DNA of 40,694 bases from Paracoccaceae bacterium. Its GTDB lineage: Bacteria > Pseudomonadota > Alphaproteobacteria > Rhodobacterales > Rhodobacteraceae. The stretch's first letter is position 1; each line of letters opens with the position of its first letter. The stretch covers positions 1-40,694 of the forward strand of contig JACIYW010000008.1 in assembly GCA_014359745.1 (NCBI GenBank), in the 5' to 3' direction. The position numbers and the translations under genes were made by a program. The notes below the pieces were generated by a model. It searched no databases. It saw only the letters and a program-made list of their open reading frames with translations, and was not told the DNA's origin. Positions 1,000-13,995 of this stretch are shown here, one piece after another.

Positions 1000-3189
1000 T
1001 CAGGGTTTCGGTTTGCCCCGGTGGGGTTTGGCGGGGCCACGGGGCGGGCCGGCTGGCCGGGTGCGCTGGGCATAGCCGCCGCCGGGGGCCGCGCCGCCAT
1101 GTGCCGCGCCTTTGCCGCCCGGCCCGCGCGGTTTGGCGGGGCCGTCATTGCCGGGACGTTTGCGCGGCGCCCCCGAAGCGCCCGGTTTGCCGGGCGGAAC
1201 GAAGCGTTTTGAGGGGTCGCGCGCATCGCCCGCAGGGGCGGCAGGGGCTGCCGGGCGTTCGGACGTGCCCGCATAGGGTTTGCCGCGCGGTTTGGCATCG
1301 GCGGGGGCATAGGGCTTTTTATCAAAGGGTTTGGCGTATTTCGGCCGTGGCGCATCGGCGCGGTCGGGGCGGTCGGGTTGCCATTTGGGTTTGGCGGGCC
1401 GGTCTTGGGGAGTTTTGGCGTCCGGGGTTTTGGCATCCTGGGTTTTGGCGGCGTGGCGCGGTTTGCGCGGTGCCTCGGGCGCGGTGTCGGCAGCGGGCAC
1501 AACGGGGGCCGCAACAGGGTCCGGGGTGGCCGCTGGCGTTGGCGCTTCGGTGCGGTCGCGCGGGGCGCGTTTGGCCGCGAAGGCGGGGCGTTCGGGGCGG
1601 GGTGAGGGGGTCAGATCCGGCTCACCCGCCAGTTGTTTCACGCTGATGCCATCTTCCAGCGCCATGGCCGGGCCAAGGGCCGCGACGAATTTCGCGGTGC
1701 TGGCATCGAGGATCTGCACAAGGCTTTCCTCTTCGCGGATGCGGATCGCGCCGATATCGTCACGGGTGATGTTGCCCGCGCGGCACAGCATCGGCAACAG
1801 CCACCGCGCCTCGGCGTTGCGGTTGCGCCCCAATGAGACGGAAAACCATGTGCTGCTGCCAAAGTCGGAGTGGCGGCGCGGCGCAGGATCGGCGCCTGAG
1901 GATGACAGTTCTTCCGGGGCCGACTGGCGCGCGCGCGACAGGCGCACAAAGGCGGCGGCAAGCTGTTCGGCGCTGAAGCGGTCGGTCAGGGTGGCGACAA
2001 GGCCGCTTTCCGCCCCGGTCACCGGTTCTTGCCAGATCGGATCGGTCAGCAGGCGTTCTTCATCGCGCGCGATCACCTCATCGGCCGAGGGCGGTTCGGC
2101 CCAGACCGGCGTCACCTTGGCGCCCCTGAGCAGCATTTCAGCCTTGCGCCGCGCCTTGGCGGGCACGATCAGCGCGCTGACCCCCTTGCGCCCGGCGCGC
2201 CCGGTGCGGCCCGAACGGTGCAGCAGGGTTTCGGAATTCGACGGCAATTCGGCGTGGATCACCAGTTCAAGGTTGGGCAGGTCGATGCCGCGCGCGGCCA
2301 CATCCGTGGCCACACAGACCCGCGCGCGCCCGTCGCGCATCGCTTGCAGGGCGTGGGTGCGTTCGGTCTGTGTCAACTCGCCCGACAGGGCCACCACCGA
2401 AAACCCACGGTTGGAAAACCGCGTGGTCAGCCGGTTGACCATGGCGCGGGTGTTGCAGAACACCAGCGCATTCGGCGCCTCGTAGAAGCGCAGAACGTTG
2501 ATCAGCGCGTTTTCGGCGTCGTGCTGCGCGACGGTAAGGGCGCGATATTCGATATCGGCGTGCTGGCTGGTGTCAGAGCGCACGGTGACGCGGCGCGAGT
2601 CTTTCTGGTAGTGCTGCGCAAGCGTGGCGATGGCCTTGGGCACGGTGGCCGAGAACATCAGCGTGCGGCGGTTGGCCGGCGCCTCGCCCAGGATGAATTC
2701 CAGATCCTCGCGAAAGCCGAGATCAAGCATCTCGTCGGCCTCATCCAGCACCACGGCGCGCACCGCGCCCATGTCAAGCGACCCGCGCTGGATATGGTCG
2801 CGCAACCGGCCGGGGGTGGCGACAACGATATGGGCGCCACGATCCAGGGCGCGGCGTTCGTCGCGCATGTCCATGCCGCCGACGCAAGACACCACGACCG
2901 CACCGGCCACCTGATAAAGCCACGACAATTCGCGTTTGACCTGAAGCGCCAGTTCGCGCGTCGGTGCGATGATCAGGGCCAGCGGCACCCCCGCCGGGCC
3001 GAAATGCGCCGCGTCATCCAGAAGCGTCGGCGCGATGGCAAGGCCAAAGCCCACCGTCTTGCCCGACCCGGTCTGGGCCGACACAAGCAGGTCTGCCCCG
3101 GTCAGGTCGGGGTCGGTCACCGCCTGCTGCACGGGGGTCAGCGCGGTATAGCCGCGGGTTTCAAGGGCTTGGGCAAGGGTATGGATCAC
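1000..3189 (-). CDS. DEAD-box ATP-dependent RNA helicase with long basic tail
   Basis: ATP-dependent RNA helicase of the DeaD/DbpA type, expected to act in ribosome assembly or cold-related RNA remodelling. The 729-residue product starts at a GTG. The Q-motif region LTPVQQA is near residue 18, motif I AQTGSGKT at about 38-45, PTREL near 76-80, TPGR near 125-128, DEAD at 149-152 and SAT at 180-182. The second RecA domain has the HRSGRTGRAGRKG motif VI near 327-339. A small domain resembling the DbpA RNA-binding domain occupies about 440-530. The last roughly 190 residues are low-complexity Pro/Ala/Lys/Arg with DAKTP repeats, an RNA-binding-type disordered tail. The gene is convergent with aroB. 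I do not give a symbol because DeaD and DbpA cannot be separated by eye. Confidence 0.92.
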   Translation of the reverse strand: MIHTLAQALETRGYTALTPVQQAVTDPDLTGADLLVSAQTGSGKTVGFGLAIAPTLLDDAAHFGPAGVPLALIIAPTRELALQVKRELSWLYQVAGAVVVSCVGGMDMRDERRALDRGAHIVVATPGRLRDHIQRGSLDMGAVRAVVLDEADEMLDLGFREDLEFILGEAPANRRTLMFSATVPKAIATLAQHYQKDSRRVTVRSDTSQHADIEYRALTVAQHDAENALINVLRFYEAPNALVFCNTRAMVNRLTTRFSNRGFSVVALSGELTQTERTHALQAMRDGRARVCVATDVAARGIDLPNLELVIHAELPSNSETLLHRSGRTGRAGRKGVSALIVPAKARRKAEMLLRGAKVTPVWAEPPSADEVIARDEERLLTDPIWQEPVTGAESGLVATLTDRFSAEQLAAAFVRLSRARQSAPEELSSSGADPAPRRHSDFGSSTWFSVSLGRNRNAEARWLLPMLCRAGNITRDDIGAIRIREEESLVQILDASTAKFVAALGPAMALEDGISVKQLAGEPDLTPSPRPERPAFAAKRAPRDRTEAPTPAATPDPVAAPVVPAADTAPEAPRKPRHAAKTQDAKTPDAKTPQDRPAKPKWQPDRPDRADAPRPKYAKPFDKKPYAPADAKPRGKPYAGTSERPAAPAAPAGDARDPSKRFVPPGKPGASGAPRKRPGNDGPAKPRGPGGKGAAHGGAAPGGGYAQRTRPAGPPRGPAKPHRGKPKP

Positions 3190-3307
3190 GGCGCAAACTT
3201 TTCAGGCTGGGGGGGCGCATTGCCGGTGGGTGCGGCCAACGCAAAGCGACCACCTAATGCCATTGGGCCCAAGTGTATAGGGCAAACTCGCCCCCCTGCC
3301 GGATTTC

Positions 3308-3367
3308 CGCCGTCCCGCCCGCCGTCCCGCCCGCCGTCCCGCCCGCCGTCTCACCCGCAGTCTCGTC
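3308..3367. repeat. 12-bp tandem repeat, five copies
   Basis: Five back-to-back 12-bp units with consensus CGCCGTCCCGCC; the last two units carry substitutions. They lie between the stop of ssb (3387) and the start of the helicase (3189). The following CGGCGGGCGGG at 3368-3378 is complementary to the repeat, so any of several copies can form a strong GC stem. On the minus strand this would act at the 3' end of ssb. There is no T-run, so a classical terminator is not supported. Confidence 0.8.
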
Positions 3368-3386
3368 CGGCGGGCGGGTTGGCCGG

Positions 3387-3878
3387 TCAGAACGGGATTT
3401 CGTCATCCATGTCATTGCGCGCGTCCACCGGTGTGCCACGGGCATCCCTGCCCCCCGACCTGTCGCCATATATGGCATCATCGGGGGTGCTGCGGTCATT
3501 ACCGGGGTAGCCGCCCTGTGTATCGCCACGGCTGTCAAGCAGGGTCAGTTCGCCCTTGTAGGGGCGCAGCACCACTTCGGTCGAATATCGGTCCTGGCCG
3601 GATTGATCCTGCCATTTGCGGGTTTCCAACTGCCCCTCGATATAAACCTTGGAGCCTTTCTTGAGATATTGTTCGGCGATCCTGGCCAGCGGTTCGCTGA
3701 AAATCGCCACCGAATGCCATTCGGTTTTTTCGCGGCGTTCGCCGGTTGCCTTGTCGCGCCAGTTTTCCGAGGTCGCGATGCGCAGGTTGCACACCTTGCC
3801 GCCATTGGCAAAGCTGCGCACCTCGGGATCGCGCCCCAGATTTCCGACGATGATCACCTTGTTGACCGATCCTGCCAT
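3387..3878 (-). CDS. ssb: Single-stranded DNA-binding protein
   Basis: Tetrameric OB-fold protein that coats single-stranded DNA in replication, repair and recombination. The start at 3878 ([15 protein letters not shown]) is preceded by a good AAGGAGG site; the frame stays open further upstream but without family similarity. The product is 163 residues. The OB fold covers about 1-110 with the conserved [21 protein letters not shown] strand region and [15 protein letters not shown] Gly/Asp-rich linker follows, then the acidic tip DDEIPF, which recruits partner proteins in known SSBs. The gene is divergent from the lytic transglycosylase across 186 bp. Confidence 0.96.
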
Positions 3879-4010
3879 CGCACCCTCCTTCGAATCCCTT
3901 GTTGCGTTCCTAGCATCCCGCAACAGGGTTATCACGCTGTTAATGCGCGCGGGCCGTCTGGCAGTTCCTTGCCAACCGGCGGCGCGGGCCGTGCGGGGTC
4001 GGTCGCCGGG

Positions 4011-4039
4011 CTGGATTTTTGCCGGGCGTCGCGTATAAA
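4011..4039 (+). promoter_or_regulatory. Candidate sigma70 promoter of the transglycosylase gene
   Basis: A TATAAA -10 element at 4034-4039 lies 17 bp from a weak -35 (CTGGAT, 4011-4016). This would place the transcript start about 20 bp before the ATG at 4065. The -10 is good and the -35 poor, so this is a suggestion only. Confidence 0.35.
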
Positions 4040-4064
4040 GGCTCAAACTGCGGGGGCAGGTGGA

Positions 4065-4685
4065 ATGTGGATGAGGGCGGGTCTGGTTGCCGGGCTTTGG
4101 GCTGTGGGCATCGGGATGGCGGGCATCGGGTTGGGCGTACCCGATCCGGCCGCGGCCGAAGGGCTGCGGTTTTCAAACGATCGCGCCACGCGCACCAAGA
4201 TGTTTCGCAGCCAGACGCAGTTTCTGGATACGCGGCTGGCGCGGCAATACGAGAATTCGGCGCGGCTGCTGCCGGGCTCGGCGCGGATTGGCGCGATGAT
4301 CCCGGCCTATAGCGGGCGCTACAGTGGTCCGCATCTGGAAACGGCGCGCAAGGCCGCGCGGCGGCGCGCGGTGCCAGAGGATCTGTTCCTGCGGCTTGTA
4401 CAACAGGAGTCCGGGTGGAACCCGCACGCGGTATCGCCAAAGGGCGCGCGGGGGCTGGCGCAACTGATGCCCGACACCGCGCGGATGCTGGGGGTCAATC
4501 CGGCCGATCCGGTGCAGAACCTGGAAGGCGGCGCGCGTTATTTGCGCCAGATGTATGATCGATTCGGCAGTTGGCGGCTGGCGCTGGCGGCCTATAACGC
4601 CGGGCCGGAGGCGGTTGAGGCCAATGGCGGCGTGCCGCCCTATGCCGAAACGCGGGCCTATGTGAAGGCGATCCTGGGGTCGTGA
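4065..4685 (+). CDS. Secreted lytic transglycosylase (SLT domain)
   Basis: Periplasmic muramidase-like enzyme that cleaves peptidoglycan glycan strands with formation of anhydro-MurNAc. The start at 4065 ([12 protein letters not shown]) follows a GCAGGTGGA site; a second ATG at 4071 is equally possible. The 206-residue product begins with a signal peptide, a hydrophobic run to about residue 27 ending in PAAAEG. The SLT domain covers about 100-206: catalytic Glu in [14 protein letters not shown], then [25 protein letters not shown] and [10 protein letters not shown]. The length fits the short single-domain transglycosylases of this family. It is divergent from ssb and convergent with the HNH gene. 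Confidence 0.9.
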
Positions 4686-4693
4686 CCGACGCC

Positions 4694-4740
4694 GGGCTGC
4701 GGTAGGGGGCCGAGGTTACGGGGCTGCGGTAGGGGGGCCG
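4694..4740. repeat. Two 19-20 bp direct repeats, 27 bp apart
   Basis: GGGCTGCGGTAGGGGGCCG at 4694-4712 is repeated with one extra G at 4721-4740, directly downstream of the transglycosylase stop. It looks like a local duplication. No function is visible. Confidence 0.7.
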
Positions 4741-4766
4741 GGGTCTGTGATGATCCGCAGGCCGGA

Positions 4767-5366
4767 TCAGGCATCAAGTTCGGCGTCCCAATACAGATAA
4801 TCCAGCCAGCTTTGATGCAGGTGGTTGGGCGGAAACTTGCGCCCGGCGTTGCGCAATTCCTCGGTGCCGGGCTGGCGCGGCGGTTTGCGCAGGTTCATGC
4901 GCGCGTCCCGGAGCGACCGCGCACCCTTGCGCAGATTGCAGGGCGCACAGGCGGCAACGACATTTTCCCAGCTTGTCACCCCACCACGCGCGCGGGGAAC
5001 GACGTGATCAAAGGTCAGATCGCCCGCGGCCCCGCAATACTGGCAGGAAAATTCATCCCGCAAGAAAAGATTGAAGCGCGTGAAGGCCACGCGCTTCTGG
5101 GGTTTCACATATTCCTTGAGCACCACGACCGAGGGTATTCGTATCTCGGTGGTCGGGCTTCGCACGATCGTGTCATATTCGGCGACGATCATCACCCGGT
5201 CCAGAAACGCGGCCTTGACCGCCTCCTGCCAGGGCCACAGCGACAGCGGGTAATAGGACAGCGGCCGGTAATCGGCGTTCAGCACCAGCGCCGGATGGTT
5301 TTTCAGCGCGGCAGGTTCACGCACGAAGGCGGTTCTGAAATCCGCCTGAAGCAAAGAGGCGTTCAT
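4767..5366 (-). CDS. HNH endonuclease domain protein
   Basis: Small HNH-type nuclease of a family that is widespread in Alphaproteobacteria. The zinc and catalytic region is clear: CQYCG, then LTFDHVVPRARGG, then a second CAPC pair in a typical beta-beta-alpha metal finger. The N-terminal half (HPALVLNADYRPLSYYPLSLWPW) is the conserved leader of this family. I chose the ATG at 5366 (MNASLLQ), with GGAAG nine bases upstream; an in-frame ATG at 5375 (MATMNAS) is an alternative, giving 199 versus 202 residues. Its role is unknown; chromosomal stand-alone members are not tied to a restriction system. The gene has a long 5' region with a candidate promoter and a palindrome. Confidence 0.88.
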   Translation of the reverse strand: MNASLLQADFRTAFVREPAALKNHPALVLNADYRPLSYYPLSLWPWQEAVKAAFLDRVMIVAEYDTIVRSPTTEIRIPSVVVLKEYVKPQKRVAFTRFNLFLRDEFSCQYCGAAGDLTFDHVVPRARGGVTSWENVVAACAPCNLRKGARSLRDARMNLRKPPRQPGTEELRNAGRKFPPNHLHQSWLDYLYWDAELDA

Positions 5367-5454
5367 CGTTGCCATCTTCCCCTTTTCAGCGGGGCATCGC
5401 CCCGGTGCCCAAGGCCGGGTGCGCCCAGACGGGCGCGCCGCCCCCGATGTATCC

Positions 5455-5482
5455 ACTATATATGGCGTTGAACGCCGCGCAA
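5455..5482 (-). promoter_or_regulatory. Candidate sigma70 promoter of the HNH gene
   Basis: Read on the minus strand, a TTGCGC -35 (5477-5482) lies 16 bp from a TATAGT -10 (5455-5460, five of six consensus bases). It would give a leader of about 80 nt before the HNH start. Confidence 0.45.
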
Positions 5483-5507
5483 GCACCGAAATTCAGGTGT
5501 CCTGCAA

Positions 5508-5521
5508 ACACTATGTAGTGT
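5508..5521. promoter_or_regulatory. Perfect 14-bp palindrome upstream of the HNH promoter
   Basis: ACACTA-TG-TAGTGT is a perfect inverted repeat lying 26 bp upstream of the candidate -35 element. CAAACA and TGTTTG arms flank it asymmetrically. It also lies just past the stop of the esterase gene, so it could instead be a weak hairpin. An operator for a small dimeric regulator is an inference. Confidence 0.45.
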
Positions 5522-5552
5522 GATTGTTTGACAGGTACATGACGAAGTTGGA

Positions 5553-6215
5553 TCAGCCGGGGATATGATCCTTCAGGAAGGAAAGCGCCAGCGCCAGGCC
5601 ATCGGGGGCGATGCCATGGGCGGTGCCGCGCGACACATGGCTGTGCACCTCGACGCCGGCCTCCATCATCACGGTCGTGGCCTCTCGCATCGCGGCAAGC
5701 GGCACCAACGGATCCTGATCGCCGTGGATCAGTTGGGTGGGGGGGGCGCAGACCATTTCGGCGGCAAATGTTTCGGGATGCAGCAGACGGCCGGAAAACC
5801 CCACGACCGCGGCCACCGGGGCTGCGCGGCGCGGCGCCACATGCAGGGCCATCATCGTGCCTTGCGAAAAGCCCACAAGCGCGGTTTGCGCCAGCGTCAT
5901 TCCCTCTTCGGCCATGCGCGCATCAAGGAAGGCATTCAGATCCTCGGCGGCACGCGCGAGGCCGGCCTCGGCCTCTGCCACGGTCGATCCGCCCATGGAG
6001 GGGATCGGGAACCATTGATACCCGAAGGGGTTGGCGGTGCAGTCCTCGGGCGCGTTGGGGGCGATGAACACCGTATCGGGCAGGTGCATCGCCAGCGGGT
6101 CGGCCAAGCCCAGCAGATCGTTGCCGTCGGCGCCATAGCCGTGCAGGAACACGACCAGCGATCTTGGGTTACCTGATGCGGCCGCGCGCCGCCCGAATGT
6201 CAATTCCCGTGTCAT
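5553..6215 (-). CDS. Alpha/beta-hydrolase carboxylesterase (phospholipase/carboxylesterase family)
   Basis: Serine esterase of the YpfH/Est family, hydrolysing short carboxylic esters or lysophospholipids in the cytoplasm. The start at 6215 (MTRELTFGRR) has a GGGAAGGGA site and overlaps the stop of the upstream glycosylase gene by ATGA, so translation is coupled. The 220-residue product has the oxyanion region FLHGYGADG, the nucleophile S117 in GFSQG, D168 in HGDQDPLVP and H200 in RGTAHGI, which is a complete triad at the usual spacing. No signal peptide is present. The physiological substrate cannot be read from sequence. Confidence 0.9.
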   Translation of the reverse strand: MTRELTFGRRAAASGNPRSLVVFLHGYGADGNDLLGLADPLAMHLPDTVFIAPNAPEDCTANPFGYQWFPIPSMGGSTVAEAEAGLARAAEDLNAFLDARMAEEGMTLAQTALVGFSQGTMMALHVAPRRAAPVAAVVGFSGRLLHPETFAAEMVCAPPTQLIHGDQDPLVPLAAMREATTVMMEAGVEVHSHVSRGTAHGIAPDGLALALSFLKDHIPG

Positions 6216-6841
6216 CTGATCCCTTCCCGTTCCTTTGCCACCCTGTAATAGGCCCAGAGCAGGCGGGCCGCAACGCCCCGCCACGGCGCCCAAGGTTCGG
6301 CAAGGGCGCGCAGGCCCTTTTCAGAGGGGCGCCCATCCAGCGTGAACAGCATCCTTGCCGCCTCTTGCAGGGCCAGGTCGCCTGCGGGCAGTATATCGGC
6401 GCGGCCCAGCGAGAACAGCGCATAAATCTCGGCGGTCCAGCGGCCGATGCCGGGCACGGCCGTCAGCCGCGCGATCACCCCGGCGTCGGGGGTGTGGCGC
6501 AGGGCCGGGTAATCGATAGCGGCCCCGGCCAGCGCCCTGGCATAACGGATTTTCTGGCGGCTGAGGCCGCAGGCGCGCAGATCCTCATCCGGGGCGCGGG
6601 CCACCGTGTCGGGCGCGAACAGATCCGCGCGTTCAAGGCGCGCCCGGATCGCGTCGCCTGCGGCCACGCTGACCTGCTGGCTGACGATCGCATCAAAGAG
6701 GGCGGCAAACCCTTCGGGGCGGCGGCGCAGCGGCAGCGGCCCGGTGCGCGCAAGGGCGGCGCCAAAGCGCGGTTCGACCGATCGCAGCCAGGCCGCCCCT
6801 TCGGCGACACAGGTTTCGGTTTCGATGACACGCCCGATCAT
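6212..6841 (-). CDS. alkA: DNA-3-methyladenine glycosylase II (HhH-GPD)
   Basis: Base-excision repair enzyme that removes alkylated purines. The 209-residue product has the helix-hairpin-helix LTAVPGIGRWTAEIY at about 126-140, followed by catalytic Asp155 in ILPAGDLALQ. The N-terminal half has AIVSQQVSVAAGDAIRARL, typical of AlkA and MAG proteins without the extra N-terminal domain of E. coli AlkA. It lacks the four-cysteine iron-sulphur cluster of the Nth/MutY branch. It forms a two-gene unit with the downstream esterase (4-bp overlap). Confidence 0.9.
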   Translation of the reverse strand: MIGRVIETETCVAEGAAWLRSVEPRFGAALARTGPLPLRRRPEGFAALFDAIVSQQVSVAAGDAIRARLERADLFAPDTVARAPDEDLRACGLSRQKIRYARALAGAAIDYPALRHTPDAGVIARLTAVPGIGRWTAEIYALFSLGRADILPAGDLALQEAARMLFTLDGRPSEKGLRALAEPWAPWRGVAARLLWAYYRVAKEREGIR

Positions 6842-6862
6842 GCGCGGCCTTTCCCACCGCCT

Positions 6863-7081
6863 TCAGGCGATGATATCCGGGGTCAGATCATCTTCGAGGC
6901 GCGCGATTTCATCTTTCAGCGCCAGTTTCTGCTTTTTCAGGCGTCGCAGGCGCAACTGATCGCCGCGCCCCGAGGTTTCAAGGACATGAATCGCCTCGTC
7001 CAGATCGCGGTGTTCACGTTTGAGCACCTCAAGCCGCACGCGCTTGACGGCCAGATTGTCCATTTCCATCGGCACATTCAT
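6863..7081 (-). CDS. YdcH-like small helical protein (DUF465)
   Basis: Small 72-residue, charged, two-helix protein. The core KREHRDLDEAIHVLE and LRRLKKQKLALKDEIARLEDDL matches the DUF465/YdcH pattern of a helical hairpin with a conserved H-x-x-LD start. No enzyme motif is present, and the function of the family is unknown. I placed the start at 7081 (MNVPMEMDNL) because residues upstream in the open frame are not family-like. No strong ribosome binding site is visible. It lies 21 bp from the start of alkA on the same strand, so it may head that unit. Confidence 0.8.
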   Translation of the reverse strand: MNVPMEMDNLAVKRVRLEVLKREHRDLDEAIHVLETSGRGDQLRLRRLKKQKLALKDEIARLEDDLTPDIIA

Positions 7082-7202
7082 GTTTTGCTTTCGGTGAGTC
7101 GCGCTGCCTGCGGTGCTTTCAGCATAGCGATTTGTGGTGCAAAGGCAAAGTTTGCCGCGCTGCGCCAGGCGACAGGCTGCGCCAGGGGAATCGCTTGCAG
7201 GA

Positions 7203-7340
7203 TCATGAGGCGCATCGGAGTGATTTTTCGAGGTAGCGGCCATCCCATGCGAAGATTTTGCGGCCAACCTTCAGGCTGGTTTCATCGGGGATAACTTTTG
7301 TGATGTTGGGGGCGACGGGGCGCGCCGCGTCCCGATCCAT
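7203..7340 (-). CDS. Possible 45-residue small protein or gene remnant
   Basis: A minus-strand frame from ATG 7340 to TGA 7203 encodes a product containing NITKVIPDETSLKVGRKIF and AWDGRYLEKS. Its third-codon positions are mostly C or A and its amino-acid mix is protein-like, unlike the shadow frames around it. No ribosome binding site is visible upstream and I recognise no family. It may be a leftover of a disrupted gene. Confidence 0.25.
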   Translation of the reverse strand: MDRDAARPVAPNITKVIPDETSLKVGRKIFAWDGRYLEKSLRCAS

Positions 7341-7560
7341 CCGTGGCCGGCATCGATGGCCTTGTGGGTGTCGGGGCCTGGGGCTTCTGTCCCGAAGAAG
7401 AGGGCCGATTCGGCGTGAAGCGATTACTGGCTGGCCTTGAGGGGACTATCCTGAATTTTGTGCCCTGGCGCATTTTGTTGCCGACCCGGTCGAAGGAACG
7501 GCGCGCCGTTCGCAAAGGGCAGGAAACGGCGCAGAAGGTTGAGAGCTTGCTCAGCGAACC

Positions 7561-7898: not shown

Positions 7899-9914
<2,016 letters not shown>

Positions 9915-10070
9915 GGCGGTGTTCCTTATGCCGGTGGATCGCGTATGGCAGGGTGATAACAGCCTGCCGGGCAAGTTCAAGCGCACCGCGTAAGCCCTTG
10001 GCGCAAAAGGGGCGCACTGGACAGTGTATTTGCGTTAGGATTGACTTTGGGTGAAAAGGGGTGATTCGCG

Positions 10071-10580
10071 ATGAACGAGATCACGGAACTGGAACACCGT
10101 ATCGCGGCCGCGCTGGAGCGGATCGGGGCGGGGCTGGATGCGATAGGTTCGGCGGGTTCGGCGGCCAAGGCGCCGGATGGGGCCAAGGATGCTTCTGGCG
10201 ACGAGGTGGCGCGCCTGCGCGAGGCGCTGGAGGCGGAGCGCGCGGCCAATGCGCAGTTGAATGAACGGGTGCGCGCGATCCGCGAGCGTCAGGAGACCAC
10301 CGTCGCCGGGCTGGAACGCAAGCTGGAGCGCATGACCCGGCAACTGGATGCGCAGGGGATCGAATTGCAGCGGATGAAAAAGGCCGGCATCGGGTTGCGC
10401 GAGGCGCAGCGCGCCCTGCGCGAGGCGCATGAGGCCGGCCTGTCAGAGCCGCATCTGATCAACAAATCCATGCTGGCCGAACTTGAATCGCTGCGCGCGG
10501 CGCGGCAGGCCGAGGCGGTGGAAATCGCTGAAATCCTTGAAGAACTTTCGCCGCTGATCAGGGAGGATATCAATGCCTGA
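10071..10580 (+). CDS. Coiled-coil protein of unknown function upstream of zapA
   Basis: The 169-residue product is almost all charged helix: about residues 55-160 carry Glu/Arg/Leu heptads such as RLREALEAERAANAQLNERVRAIRE (only partly quoted here as motif RLREALEAERA). It has no signal peptide, membrane segment or enzyme motif. The start at 10071 has an AAAAGGGGTGA site. Its last 8 bp overlap the start of zapA, so the two are co-translated. In this context a role with the division protein is likely, but that is inference; I do not recognise a named family. Confidence 0.82.
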   Translation: MNEITELEHRIAAALERIGAGLDAIGSAGSAAKAPDGAKDASGDEVARLREALEAERAANAQLNERVRAIRERQETTVAGLERKLERMTRQLDAQGIELQRMKKAGIGLREAQRALREAHEAGLSEPHLINKSMLAELESLRAARQAEAVEIAEILEELSPLIREDINA

Positions 10581-10971
10581 CATCACGATTTCGGTTGGTG
10601 GCCGCGATTACACCGTCGCCTGCCAGGACGGGGAGGAGCATTTCCTGCAAGCCGCCGCCAGGTTGCTGGATGGGGAGGCGTCGGAACTGTTAGGCCAGAT
10701 CGGGCGCCTGACCGAGGCGCGACTGCTGTTGATGGCGGGGTTGCTGCTGGCCGACAAGACCGCCGGGATCGAGGATCAGTTGCGCGCGGCACAGCAAACG
10801 GTCGAGGTGCAGGCGGCCGAGCTGGCGACGCTGCGAAAGCGCCCCGCGCCCGCGCCGCAACGCATCGAGGTGCCGGTGATCCCCGCCGAAGTGACCGAGA
10901 CGATGGCCGAACTGGCCGCCCGCGCCGAGGCGCTGGCCGCGCGCATGGAAGAGGCGGCGGCGGTAAAATAA
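10573..10971 (+). CDS. zapA: Cell division protein ZapA
   Basis: Z-ring-associated protein that cross-links FtsZ filaments at midcell. The 132-residue product begins MPDITISVGGRDYTVAC, followed by GEEHFLQAAARLLDGEASEL and a long C-terminal helix, which is the ZapA arrangement of a beta-rich head and a tetramerising coiled coil. An Ala/Glu-rich extension (residues 85-132) is longer than in enterobacterial ZapA, as is usual in Rhodobacteraceae. The ribosome binding site GGAGG lies inside the preceding gene. The last codons are followed at once by a hairpin and repeat region. Confidence 0.88.
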   Translation: MPDITISVGGRDYTVACQDGEEHFLQAAARLLDGEASELLGQIGRLTEARLLLMAGLLLADKTAGIEDQLRAAQQTVEVQAAELATLRKRPAPAPQRIEVPVIPAEVTETMAELAARAEALAARMEEAAAVK

Positions 10972-11049
10972 CCGCCCCGAACCCGCGTCTGACACGCGTA
11001 CATATCGCGTACATCTTGCGTACATACACTGTGCGCCGCGTTCGGGCGG
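10972..11049. repeat. Hairpin arms enclosing three 11-bp GCGTACAT repeats
   Basis: GCGTACAT occurs at 10996-11003, 11007-11014 and 11018-11025, exactly 11 bp apart, that is, one helical turn each. The block is enclosed by imperfect inverted arms: CCGCCCCGAACCCGCG at 10972-10987 and CGCGTTCGGGCGG at 11037-11049. It lies in the convergent space between zapA and the two-gene insert. It could be a terminator-like structure for zapA, or a phased protein-binding site or insertion boundary. Confidence 0.7.
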
Positions 11050-11095: not shown

Positions 11096-11854
11096 TCAAG
11101 ACACCTTCGCATATTCCATAATCTGCTGATCGCTTGCCGAGATTGAGAGTATGTTTGCAACATCTCCGATCATCTGGCCCTTCTCATCAAGCGCGCCAAC
11201 ATCCCTGACCATCGCGTTAAGCGAGATGTCCTGTTCTGAATACCTAATGTCACTGAACATTAGAAACTTGGTCGAAACCGATGTCGTGTGTGCCGTCATG
11301 TGTTCGAATATCGCCCTATGACGATTCGGGAAGACCACAACGTTGTGCGCCTCCCAATGTGCGTGCTTACCAACGATATCAGCGGACCTTGCCACCAGTC
11401 TCTCGCCAAAAACGGATTTTACCCGTTCGAAAATTTTCTCGTTTTGCCTCCGGTTTTTTGCTTCGGATGCCTGAAAGATCGCTTCTGAACACGCGCGATT
11501 GGATGCGTTGGCGATGCAAATGATGGCGGACTCCAGGCGAGCGCTTGGCACCCAAAGGGCAAACATCGCGTTTCCGTCAAATCCAACACCAAAGTCATCA
11601 GCAACGCGCGCGGCAATCTTTCCGTAGAATGTATGCGCGCCAGATATCTGTGCCTCTACCAGCCCATACCCCATGTCAGATACCCAGAAGTTGTCACCGT
11701 TGCGCTCAACCTCAACGACGGTCGTGGCGCCGCTTGGATACATAACAGGAACATCGACCGCAGTCTTGCTGTCAAGATCGCGCACGGAAGCAATCCGTCG
11801 CAGCGCTTCGCGCACTCGCTCAAGCGTCTGTGTATCTTCATGCGCCACGATCAA
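11096..11854 (-). CDS. Accessory protein of unknown function, DUF1828-like N-terminus
   Basis: The 252-residue product begins at a TTG (11854) that overlaps the stop of the upstream partner, so it is translationally coupled. The N-terminal part (about 30-110) has DVPVMYPSGATTVVEVERNG, then FWVSDMGYGLVEAQ, then a GVGFDGNAMF segment and a helix LESAIICIANAS. This order of strand, SD-x-GY turn, strand and helix resembles DUF1828 as I remember it; the match is weak and unverified. No catalytic motif, signal peptide or membrane segment is seen. Base composition is clearly less GC-rich than neighbouring genes, which suggests acquisition. With the 177-residue protein it forms a two-gene cassette between zapA and grxD. 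Confidence 0.7.
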   Translation of the reverse strand: MIVAHEDTQTLERVREALRRIASVRDLDSKTAVDVPVMYPSGATTVVEVERNGDNFWVSDMGYGLVEAQISGAHTFYGKIAARVADDFGVGFDGNAMFALWVPSARLESAIICIANASNRACSEAIFQASEAKNRRQNEKIFERVKSVFGERLVARSADIVGKHAHWEAHNVVVFPNRHRAIFEHMTAHTTSVSTKFLMFSDIRYSEQDISLNAMVRDVGALDEKGQMIGDVANILSISASDQQIMEYAKVS

Positions 11855-12384
11855 ATCAAGATGCCCTGCTTCTCCAATGGCGGCACGTCTCCGCCGTTGA
11901 CGATATTGATTCTACTACAAACATACATGAATGCGGTAGCAAAATCTGAGGGTGGGTTCGCTACTATCCGCCCCTGCTCATCTGGTCTCGCCCGAAGCTC
12001 ACCGTCGCCCTTAAGGCTGTCGTAGAACATATGTTCGTGCGGTACACCAGCATCGATAAAGACGCCAGCAACATCCTCAGGACCATACATCTTATTTGTG
12101 TGTGCGCGGGCAGGATTCAATTCAAAACGATAAAGTACTGGTTTGAAGCGGACCGCGTTAAGATCAACCTCCAGCTGGAAGGTAACACGAGTCAGGGAGC
12201 CGGGGTGGGCCACGATACGAAAGAAGACCCCGCGCGGCACCACGCCCGCGATTTCAAAGCGGGCCTCAAGGCTCGTTCTGGTGTCGGCATTTTTTTGTCC
12301 TCTCAACTGATCCCATCTCAGTGGCTTGAGAAGGCGTTTCGAAGCACGAAAGATGTAGTCAGCTTCCGAAAAAGGGATTGGCAT
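11851..12384 (-). CDS. Accessory protein of unknown function, first gene of a two-gene insert
   Basis: The 177-residue product starts at ATG 12384 (MPIPFSEADYIFR) without a clear ribosome binding site. Visible pieces are a basic N-terminal helix (ASKRLLKPLRWDQLRGQK), a beta-rich middle (FEIAGVVPRGVFFRIVAH and RVTFQLEVDL), then RFELNPARAHTNK and a His-containing GVPHEHMFYDS. The middle recalls small DUF6978-type proteins, but this is recollection, not a search result. The stop overlaps the start codon of the 252-residue partner. GC content is lower than in the flanking genes. Toxin-antitoxin or defence function is possible from size, pairing and composition, but no motif proves it. Confidence 0.7.
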   Translation of the reverse strand: MPIPFSEADYIFRASKRLLKPLRWDQLRGQKNADTRTSLEARFEIAGVVPRGVFFRIVAHPGSLTRVTFQLEVDLNAVRFKPVLYRFELNPARAHTNKMYGPEDVAGVFIDAGVPHEHMFYDSLKGDGELRARPDEQGRIVANPPSDFATAFMYVCSRINIVNGGDVPPLEKQGILI

Positions 12385-12459
12385 CCCATAGCGTTAGCGC
12401 AGTGATTGTGCGAAGGCGAGTCTAAACTTACCTCAAGGCGACATCCCCAAACGCCACGA

Positions 12460-12487
12460 AAAACGCCGGGCGCTGGCCCGGCGTTTT
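12460..12487 (-). terminator. Rho-independent terminator of the bolA-grxD unit
   Basis: An 11-bp perfect stem (AAAACGCCGGG/CCCGGCGTTTT) has a 6-nt loop. On the minus strand it ends in a run of five T. It lies 36 bp past the grxD stop and isolates grxD from the downstream two-gene insert, so the insert needs its own promoter. Confidence 0.85.
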
Positions 12488-13199: not shown

Positions 13200-13826
13200 C
13201 TATTGGTCGATATGCACCGGGCCGACCATGCCGGATGCGTAGTGGCCGGGAACGGTGCAGGCGAATTCGATCTGCGAAGCTGGATCGGATTTGGGAAATG
13301 TCCAGATCATTTCGGCGCTGTCACCGGGGTTGACGAGGATGGCGCCCGCGCCGGTGTGCGGTTCGGTCGCTTCGGTTGCAGGACCGGCCGCCAGACCCAT
13401 ATGATTGCCGCCCATGTGACCGCCGCCCATGTAATTGCCGCCCATGTAATTGCCGCCCATGTGATTGTCCGTGGCACCCGTGCCCATCATCGAAAGCGCG
13501 CCGCTGGCAAACATTTCCGCCATCTCCGCCTCGTGTTCGTGGTGTTCCTGCGGGGTGTTGATCGCGAATTCGTGCAGGAAATGCCCCCGGTTGTGCAGGA
13601 CAAAGCGGATGGTTTCGCCCGGTTTCACATCAAGGTCGGGGATGGAAAAGGCGTTGTCGGTCATCATGACGTCGACGGTGCGCCCGACGTCGGCGGCCAT
13701 GCCGGGATGCCCCACATTTGCGCCATGATCGCCGTCGTGGCTTCCTGCGGCAAGCAACGGCGTGGTTGAGAGGGCAAGGAGGGCCGCGCCAAGCAGGACG
13801 CGGAAGGGGGTGCGAAGGTCTGTCAT
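13200..13826 (-). CDS. Secreted cupredoxin with Met/His/Asn-rich repeat
   Basis: Periplasmic blue-copper-type protein, probably in copper handling. The start at 13826 (MTDLRTPFRVLLG) has an AAAGGACA site. The 208-residue precursor has a signal peptide to about residue 27 (LLAAGS). The type 1 copper ligands are all visible: H85 in FLHEFAIN, then C190, H195 and M200 in FACTVPGHYASGM. Between the first ligand and the C-terminal loop lies a 5-residue repeat (NHMGG/NYMGG, about 121-144) rich in Met and His, plus a HHEHE cluster. Such motifs bind Cu(I)/Cu(II) in CopC-like and other copper proteins. It sits between purL and bolA as an addition to a usually tight cluster. Confidence 0.88.
   Translation of the reverse strand: MTDLRTPFRVLLGAALLALSTTPLLAAGSHDGDHGANVGHPGMAADVGRTVDVMMTDNAFSIPDLDVKPGETIRFVLHNRGHFLHEFAINTPQEHHEHEAEMAEMFASGALSMMGTGATDNHMGGNYMGGNYMGGGHMGGNHMGLAAGPATEATEPHTGAGAILVNPGDSAEMIWTFPKSDPASQIEFACTVPGHYASGMVGPVHIDQ
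13396..13470. repeat. 15-bp in-frame tandem repeat, five copies, in the cupredoxin gene
   Basis: CCCAT occurs at 13396, 13411, 13426, 13441 and 13456, exactly every 15 bp, within units close to GCCGCCCATGTAATT. The unit length keeps the frame and encodes one MGG(N/G)(H/Y) pentapeptide per copy, so copy number can change metal-site number without breaking the gene. Confidence 0.9.
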
Positions 13827-13995
13827 GGGGTGTCCTTTCACGATGTTACCGCTTTTGCAGGGGTGACAGCCTGCACCCTAAACATTTATCCCACGCAATG
13901 AAACCGGTGTTGACCCCGCGCGCCGCGCTTAGGGCGGAGTTGCTTCAGCCGGGTTCGGTTTCCGGACCGGCGCGCGCGGGGTGGGGGCGGGAGAT

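Follow-up and report, generated by a model that had tools for sequence, protein, structure and literature searches.

A diverged PDC-M24-like gene pair with the mark of an IS1595-family transposon end between zapA and grxD of a Paracoccaceae bacterium

The window analysed here is a stretch of 40,694 nucleotides from a Paracoccaceae bacterium, and between its zapA and grxD genes lie two overlapping genes on the reverse strand. The original prediction had described such a pair, coding for 177 and 252 residues with the TTG start of the second gene inside the stop of the first, and both the coordinates and the TTGA overlap are confirmed. The features of the locus are as follows:

11851 to 12384, minus strand: ORF1, ATG start, 177 residues, assigned by profile comparison as a diverged DUF6978 / PDC-M24A-like protein
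11096 to 11854, minus strand: ORF2, TTG start, 252 residues, assigned likewise as a diverged DUF1828-DUF1829 / PDC-M24B-like protein
11851 to 11854, minus strand: TTGA overlap of the ORF1 stop and the ORF2 start, 4 nt shared, with predicted translational coupling
12416 to 12448, minus strand: putative relic of an IS1595-family left inverted repeat with an inner GACTCGC motif, GGGGATGTCGCCTTGAGGTAAGTTTAGACTCGC

The GC content is 0.52 in ORF1 and ORF2 alike, and the pair stands below its neighbours, as had been noticed before: GC3 is 0.55 and 0.58 in the pair against 0.75-0.84 in tkt, zapA, grxD, bolA, purL and other neighbouring genes, and a codon-adaptation-like index gives 0.35 for the pair against 0.59-0.80 around it. 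The flanking structures were also found as described, namely a perfect 12-bp stem towards grxD (12460-12487) and, towards zapA, an inverted repeat, imperfect and of 15 bp with 51 nt in its loop, within which three copies of GCGTACATN lie. The grxD terminator had been taken as one bound of the pair, but the edge of the insert on that side lies at about 12448, at the transposon-end relic. The three GCGTACATN copies, just past zapA at 10996-11026, are direct and spaced by exactly 11 bp, and are a candidate helical-phase operator or iteron-like array. Further along, the window has a cupredoxin-like open reading frame (13200-13841) that contains MGGNYMGGNYMGGGHMGGNHMG, a repeated short insert with much Met, His and Gly.

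We consider ORF1 and ORF2 to be real genes, since the pair recurs in 26 loci, the nearest homologues of both proteins are 59-61% identical, and the homologues are under purifying selection, with dN/dS between loci L033 and L042 of 0.36 (ORF1) and 0.29 (ORF2). Their accessory nature, as described earlier, and their horizontal acquisition are confirmed, and the comparison of the zapA-grxD gap in relatives that had been proposed shows the gap empty or differently filled. grxD is present in 60 of 61 sampled genomes of the family. Of the 29 relatives in which the locus was read, 21 have zapA and grxD side by side and convergent, the pair being absent between them, and the gap mostly measures less than 500 bp. 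ORF2 had no match in any of the 60 family genomes G001-G060; therefore the pair was inserted in the lineage of the window. The arrangement named at the outset as speaking against the prediction, in which every relative would have the pair at this place and with normal codon use, was looked for and not observed. Three relatives carry other genes in the gap (L074 1860-3152, L098 1935-2696 and L101 644-1342), among them one for a 430-aa PAS-like protein, and for this reason insertions may be tolerated in the gap.

The search for conserved pairing used a three-sequence profile that was widened stepwise, and recovered ORF2 relatives in 10 of 385 genomes of the class, 7 of 296 of the family and 11 of 398 of the phylum (~2-3%), the window's own genome being counted in each. 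Counting the window, 26 loci have an ORF1 homologue immediately 5' of ORF2 and on the same strand, and the two genes overlap by 1-37 nt in most of the other intact loci. Departures from this arrangement are found at contig ends, in truncated copies and, in L039, in a degenerate tandem repeat. Over 21 pairs, the pairwise distances calculated for ORF1 correlate with those for ORF2 (Mantel r=0.85, reached in 0 of 5000 permutations) and, given this correlation and the fixed gene order, the two genes move as a single inherited unit. Many copies in the family stand alone at unrelated housekeeping sites where a carrier is absent, and the pair has been retained alone repeatedly, as in L033 and L055. 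A scan of viral contigs with close-pair patterns found no relative. Two loci depart from the common arrangement. In L040 (934-2202), the gene of a DUF1828 protein comes after a short one of 115 aa that ends in RFEHHGSHPGLHAHAH and is perhaps a minimal analogue of ORF1, which would make this a further subtype of the pair. L039 (5663-8703) holds ORF2 homologues in tandem, with the ORF1 between them short or missing, and reads from its gene arrangement as a decaying or duplicated module.

Neither window protein passes any Pfam, NCBIfam or PADLOC model. Direct HMM scans against these collections and PHROGs gave sub-threshold matches only (for ORF1, phrog_2017 at E=0.0011), and matches to PF22398, PF08861, PF08862, PDC-M24A and PDC-M24B were absent for both proteins. 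Two further candidates, PDC-M38B (E=0.017) and PepQ_N, were set aside as chance matches which the relatives do not support. The resemblance to DUF6978 and DUF1828 named in the original prediction proved right at family level. In profile-profile comparison with hhalign, the ORF1 family aligned with a canonical DUF6978 set with a probability of 89.9% (E 1.7e-6, 135 columns), superposing the RxD, HxN and HxH motifs, and the ORF2 family aligned with the corresponding DUF1828-1829 set at 98.2% (E 3.4e-14, 220 columns), while the crossed control reached 0.2%. For reference, the canonical pair of genome G548 was joined by five more, taken from plasmids and phages; all were checked against Pfam and PADLOC except both L107 proteins and, in L109, the ORF1 part. 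Homologues of the window proteins also reach the published models themselves: the L061 homologue of ORF2 matches Pfam DUF1828 above cut-off (27 bits), outlying family members also touch DUF1829 and DUF6978, two ORF1 homologues match PF22398 (best 6e-5), and PADLOC PDC-M24B is matched by 11 of 17 ORF2 homologues (best 4.3e-13). The PDC-M24A model found a strong match in one of the 16 pair-bearing genomes, G548, at a separate canonical locus.

The window clade and DUF6978 share in ORF1 the signature R-x-[DE]...H-x-N...H-x-H, and the A-then-B gene order, adjacent or overlapping, holds in the window pair as in the canonical pairs. By profile comparison, then, the window pair belongs with the PDC-M24 kind (PDC-M24A corresponding to DUF6978 and PDC-M24B to DUF1828-DUF1829), with which it shares both proteins, the gene order, comparable sizes and a direct overlap or short gap. 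It is best described as a diverged variant and not as a model-defined member, because both proteins are too diverged to match the Pfam and PADLOC models. Moreover, ORF1 of the window clade has an extra or longer loop between HxN and HxH, and several relatives in the clade ride IS1595 transposons. The suggestion of an undescribed system is thus not upheld, since this kind of module is already catalogued, as the PADLOC candidate PDC-M24 and as Pfam DUFs; a description of the diverged clade or of its carriage by IS1595 was not found in the literature.

An IS1595-family transposase is the neighbouring gene in eight loci, one of them verified with PF12762 (E=7.5e-41), when the 27 IS1595 genes present in 18 genomes (~71 Mb) would give about 0.03 such neighbours by chance. 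Seven loci (L023, L026/L032, L028, L035, L057 and L058) have matching terminal inverted repeats that enclose the pair together with a PF12762/PF12760 transposase. Genome G438 contains two copies of the element, with pair and transposase (L026 7364-9814, and L032), and because these 2451-bp copies are 99.8% identical within one genome they indicate a recent transposition of the module. Their ends are AAGGGG(A/T)TTATCCCCTTGACGCAAGT-type inverted repeats, bordered by imperfect 8-bp direct repeats with 7/8 and 6/8 matches; similar ends occur in L028, L035, L057 and L058, and L023 has a different end sequence. The L057 element also contains a tRNA-Gly with an unusual ACC anticodon (8667-8741, minus strand), in the space from the left inverted repeat to ORF1.

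In the window, the relic 40 bp upstream of ORF1 scored 17.2 against at most 9.3 when the region was shuffled 40 times. The end motif alone gives the second-best score over the whole window and is not unusual, and together with the inner GACTCGC it is matched once where 0 are expected. L033 has an identical relic at an equal distance from ORF1, and the motif is found also in L049/L058. A right-end inverted repeat was not found within 1.6 kb, and a search for a DDE transposase of the IS1595 family found none near the pair and no intact one in the window's genome. Read from these sequence remains, the window pair seems to have arrived on an IS1595-family transposon, as its cargo, and the right end and transposase of that element to have been lost afterwards; the other seven loci keep both ends and transposase, whereas the window keeps the left-end relic only. 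With its transposase lost and its codons little adapted, the window copy may be decaying. What a transposon carries may be an addiction module or a neutral passenger. The missing transposase and right end would suit a neutral leftover of insertion, inert transposon debris, but both frames are intact, the homologues are under purifying selection with dN/dS of 0.29-0.36, and the pair alone has been kept recurrently elsewhere, which makes this explanation extremely improbable.

The pair has other carriers as well. In a Pseudochrobactrum prophage, a member of the clade adjoins an S24 repressor, and both Staphylococcus phage 37 (ORF031-ORF014) and Latilactobacillus phage TMW 1.1365 P3 have a canonical pair with an integrase gene after it. 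The pairs of these two temperate phages are likewise tandem, DUF6978 and then DUF1828-1829, but differ from the window pair in the adjoining integrase and in being canonical by Pfam; no function has been reported for them. In a Staphylococcus delphini plasmid-prophage, the canonical pair also precedes an integrase, and an S24 repressor is visible there as well. A conjugative IncP plasmid and a plasmid of Acetobacter carry further canonical pairs. At L106 of G548 (3167-7478), the canonical pair lies directly 3' of hsdM-/hsdS-like genes in a type I restriction-modification operon, with an HTH/ImmA-like gene nearby (9530-10684), and the same genome carries L033, a close relative of the window pair. 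Lysogeny modules are a known home of superinfection-exclusion genes such as ltp (PMC3952083).

Adjoining phage repressors, and lying within transposon ends with the inner GACTCGC motif just upstream of ORF1, the pair could regulate its carrier, with a DNA-binding pseudo-nuclease and a small partner modulating transposition or lysogeny. We find this very unlikely, given that the carriers (phages, IS1595, plasmids) are mutually unrelated and that many genomes hold the pair at unrelated housekeeping sites and without any carrier. The presence on IS1595 elements, plasmids and prophages, and the architecture of two overlapping genes, would also be expected of an addiction module that stabilises these elements and has no direct antiphage role. 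However, addiction of the plasmid type would be of little gain to small transposons, one canonical pair is located within a restriction-modification operon, and the position in lysogeny modules resembles that of exclusion genes, so that a purely maintenance role appears unlikely.

AlphaFold models of both proteins, which had been proposed as a check, were made and are confident (AlphaFold2, pLDDT 91 for each). ORF1 carries the motif R-F-E...H95-T-N97...H116-E-H118, with K16, W24, N97, H116 and H118 invariant or nearly so across the family. It has no clear solved counterpart: its best structural match (VIA-align) reached Z 4.5, and Foldseek against the PDB and viral models returned nothing above noise. 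We therefore leave its fold unassigned and do not call it new. PDB sequence searches with the ORF1 and ORF2 family profiles found nothing either. In ORF2, where D60, G162 and D202 are invariant, the N-terminal domain (~8-129) resembles type III secretion chaperones with Z scores near or under 8 (8q8o, Z 8.8, 110 aligned, 3.9 A; ExsC, 7.4, 113, 3.5 A; SicP, 7.0, 108, 3.6 A), and the C-terminal domain (~130-252) matches the PDDEXK fold, with BstEII (Z 9.6), AF1548 (9.5), Can2 (9.5) and XisH (7.7-8.0) among its counterparts.

Together with likenesses to Card1 and BspD6I, which fall within the same nuclease range (Z 7.6-9.6), this fold could mean that ORF2 is the effector and acts on DNA, with ORF1 as its inhibitor or specificity factor. 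Against such a reversal of roles, the catalytic residues of PDDEXK enzymes are lost: at the Lys position of the [DE]xK motif, 23 of 26 sequences have V or M and none has K, and the beta-2 Asp is kept in 12 of 26 and is absent in the window. The C-domain is for these reasons probably not a nuclease, and its PDDEXK likeness is at fold level only. Furthermore, in HipAD/DS-6 (DefensePredictor), a validated defence system, DUF1829 lies in DS-6B, the antitoxin-like partner (PMC13092281). We hold ORF2 as effector to be decidedly unlikely.

The reading that we prefer, to which we give about an even chance, makes the pair a toxin-antitoxin-like module for abortive infection or superinfection exclusion, in which ORF1 would be the effector and ORF2 its restraint and the sensor. 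The overlap of the genes, their strict co-inheritance, the mobile carriage, the lysogeny-module and restriction-modification contexts, the invariant H-x-H of ORF1 and the place of DUF1829 on the antitoxin side of HipAD/DS-6 jointly favour this reading. ORF1, for which conserved residues are the whole basis of an effector role, would act through its H-x-N...H-x-H cluster, perhaps on RNA; the chaperone-like N-domain of ORF2 would keep it inactive, and the pseudo-nuclease C-domain would sense infection or bind DNA. We infer the identity of the effector, its target, its trigger and any antiphage effect. The toxin-antitoxin or defence pair of the original prediction is favoured by the co-inheritance, by the mobile setting and by the relationship to a candidate system of PADLOC. 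PADLOC lists PDC-M24 as a candidate only, and the literature searched gives no published activity for members of either family. More tentatively, and with the balance leaning somewhat against it, the module could be a transposon-borne antiphage system in which a chaperone-like antitoxin fused to a dead PDDEXK domain restrains an effector unmatched in the PDB, and IS1595 spreads this self-contained ~2.5-kb immune cargo.

Two known systems help to place this preferred module. HipAD/DS-6 likewise has two genes, a toxin-antitoxin-like design and a partner with DUF1829, but its effector is a HipA-family kinase, whereas ORF1 and its homologues have no kinase match in Pfam or PADLOC, and the N-domain of ORF2 is DUF1828-like and not DUF3037. 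TumE-TumA (DUF6516, PMC10584680) also consists of a small beta-rich protein with the order R-x-D...H-x-H and a bicistronic partner; that partner and the gene order are different from those of the window pair, and the relation of ORF1 to TumE/DUF6516 suggested by the shared motif order received an hhalign probability of 0.1-0.4% with a 6-sequence template.

The analysis joins in one two-gene module the families DUF6978, DUF1828 and DUF1829 and a clade that has no name and escapes current models. The module occurs across Bacillota and Pseudomonadota, in phages of Staphylococcus and of lactobacilli, in plasmids, in a type I restriction operon and in IS1595 transposons. It also points to residues predicted to matter, N97, H116 and H118 in ORF1 and D60, G162 and D202 in ORF2. 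If the antiphage reading is true, small IS1595 elements would be vehicles for complete immune modules of ~2.5 kb, and searches for defence islands would miss such modules because many of their copies stand alone among housekeeping genes.
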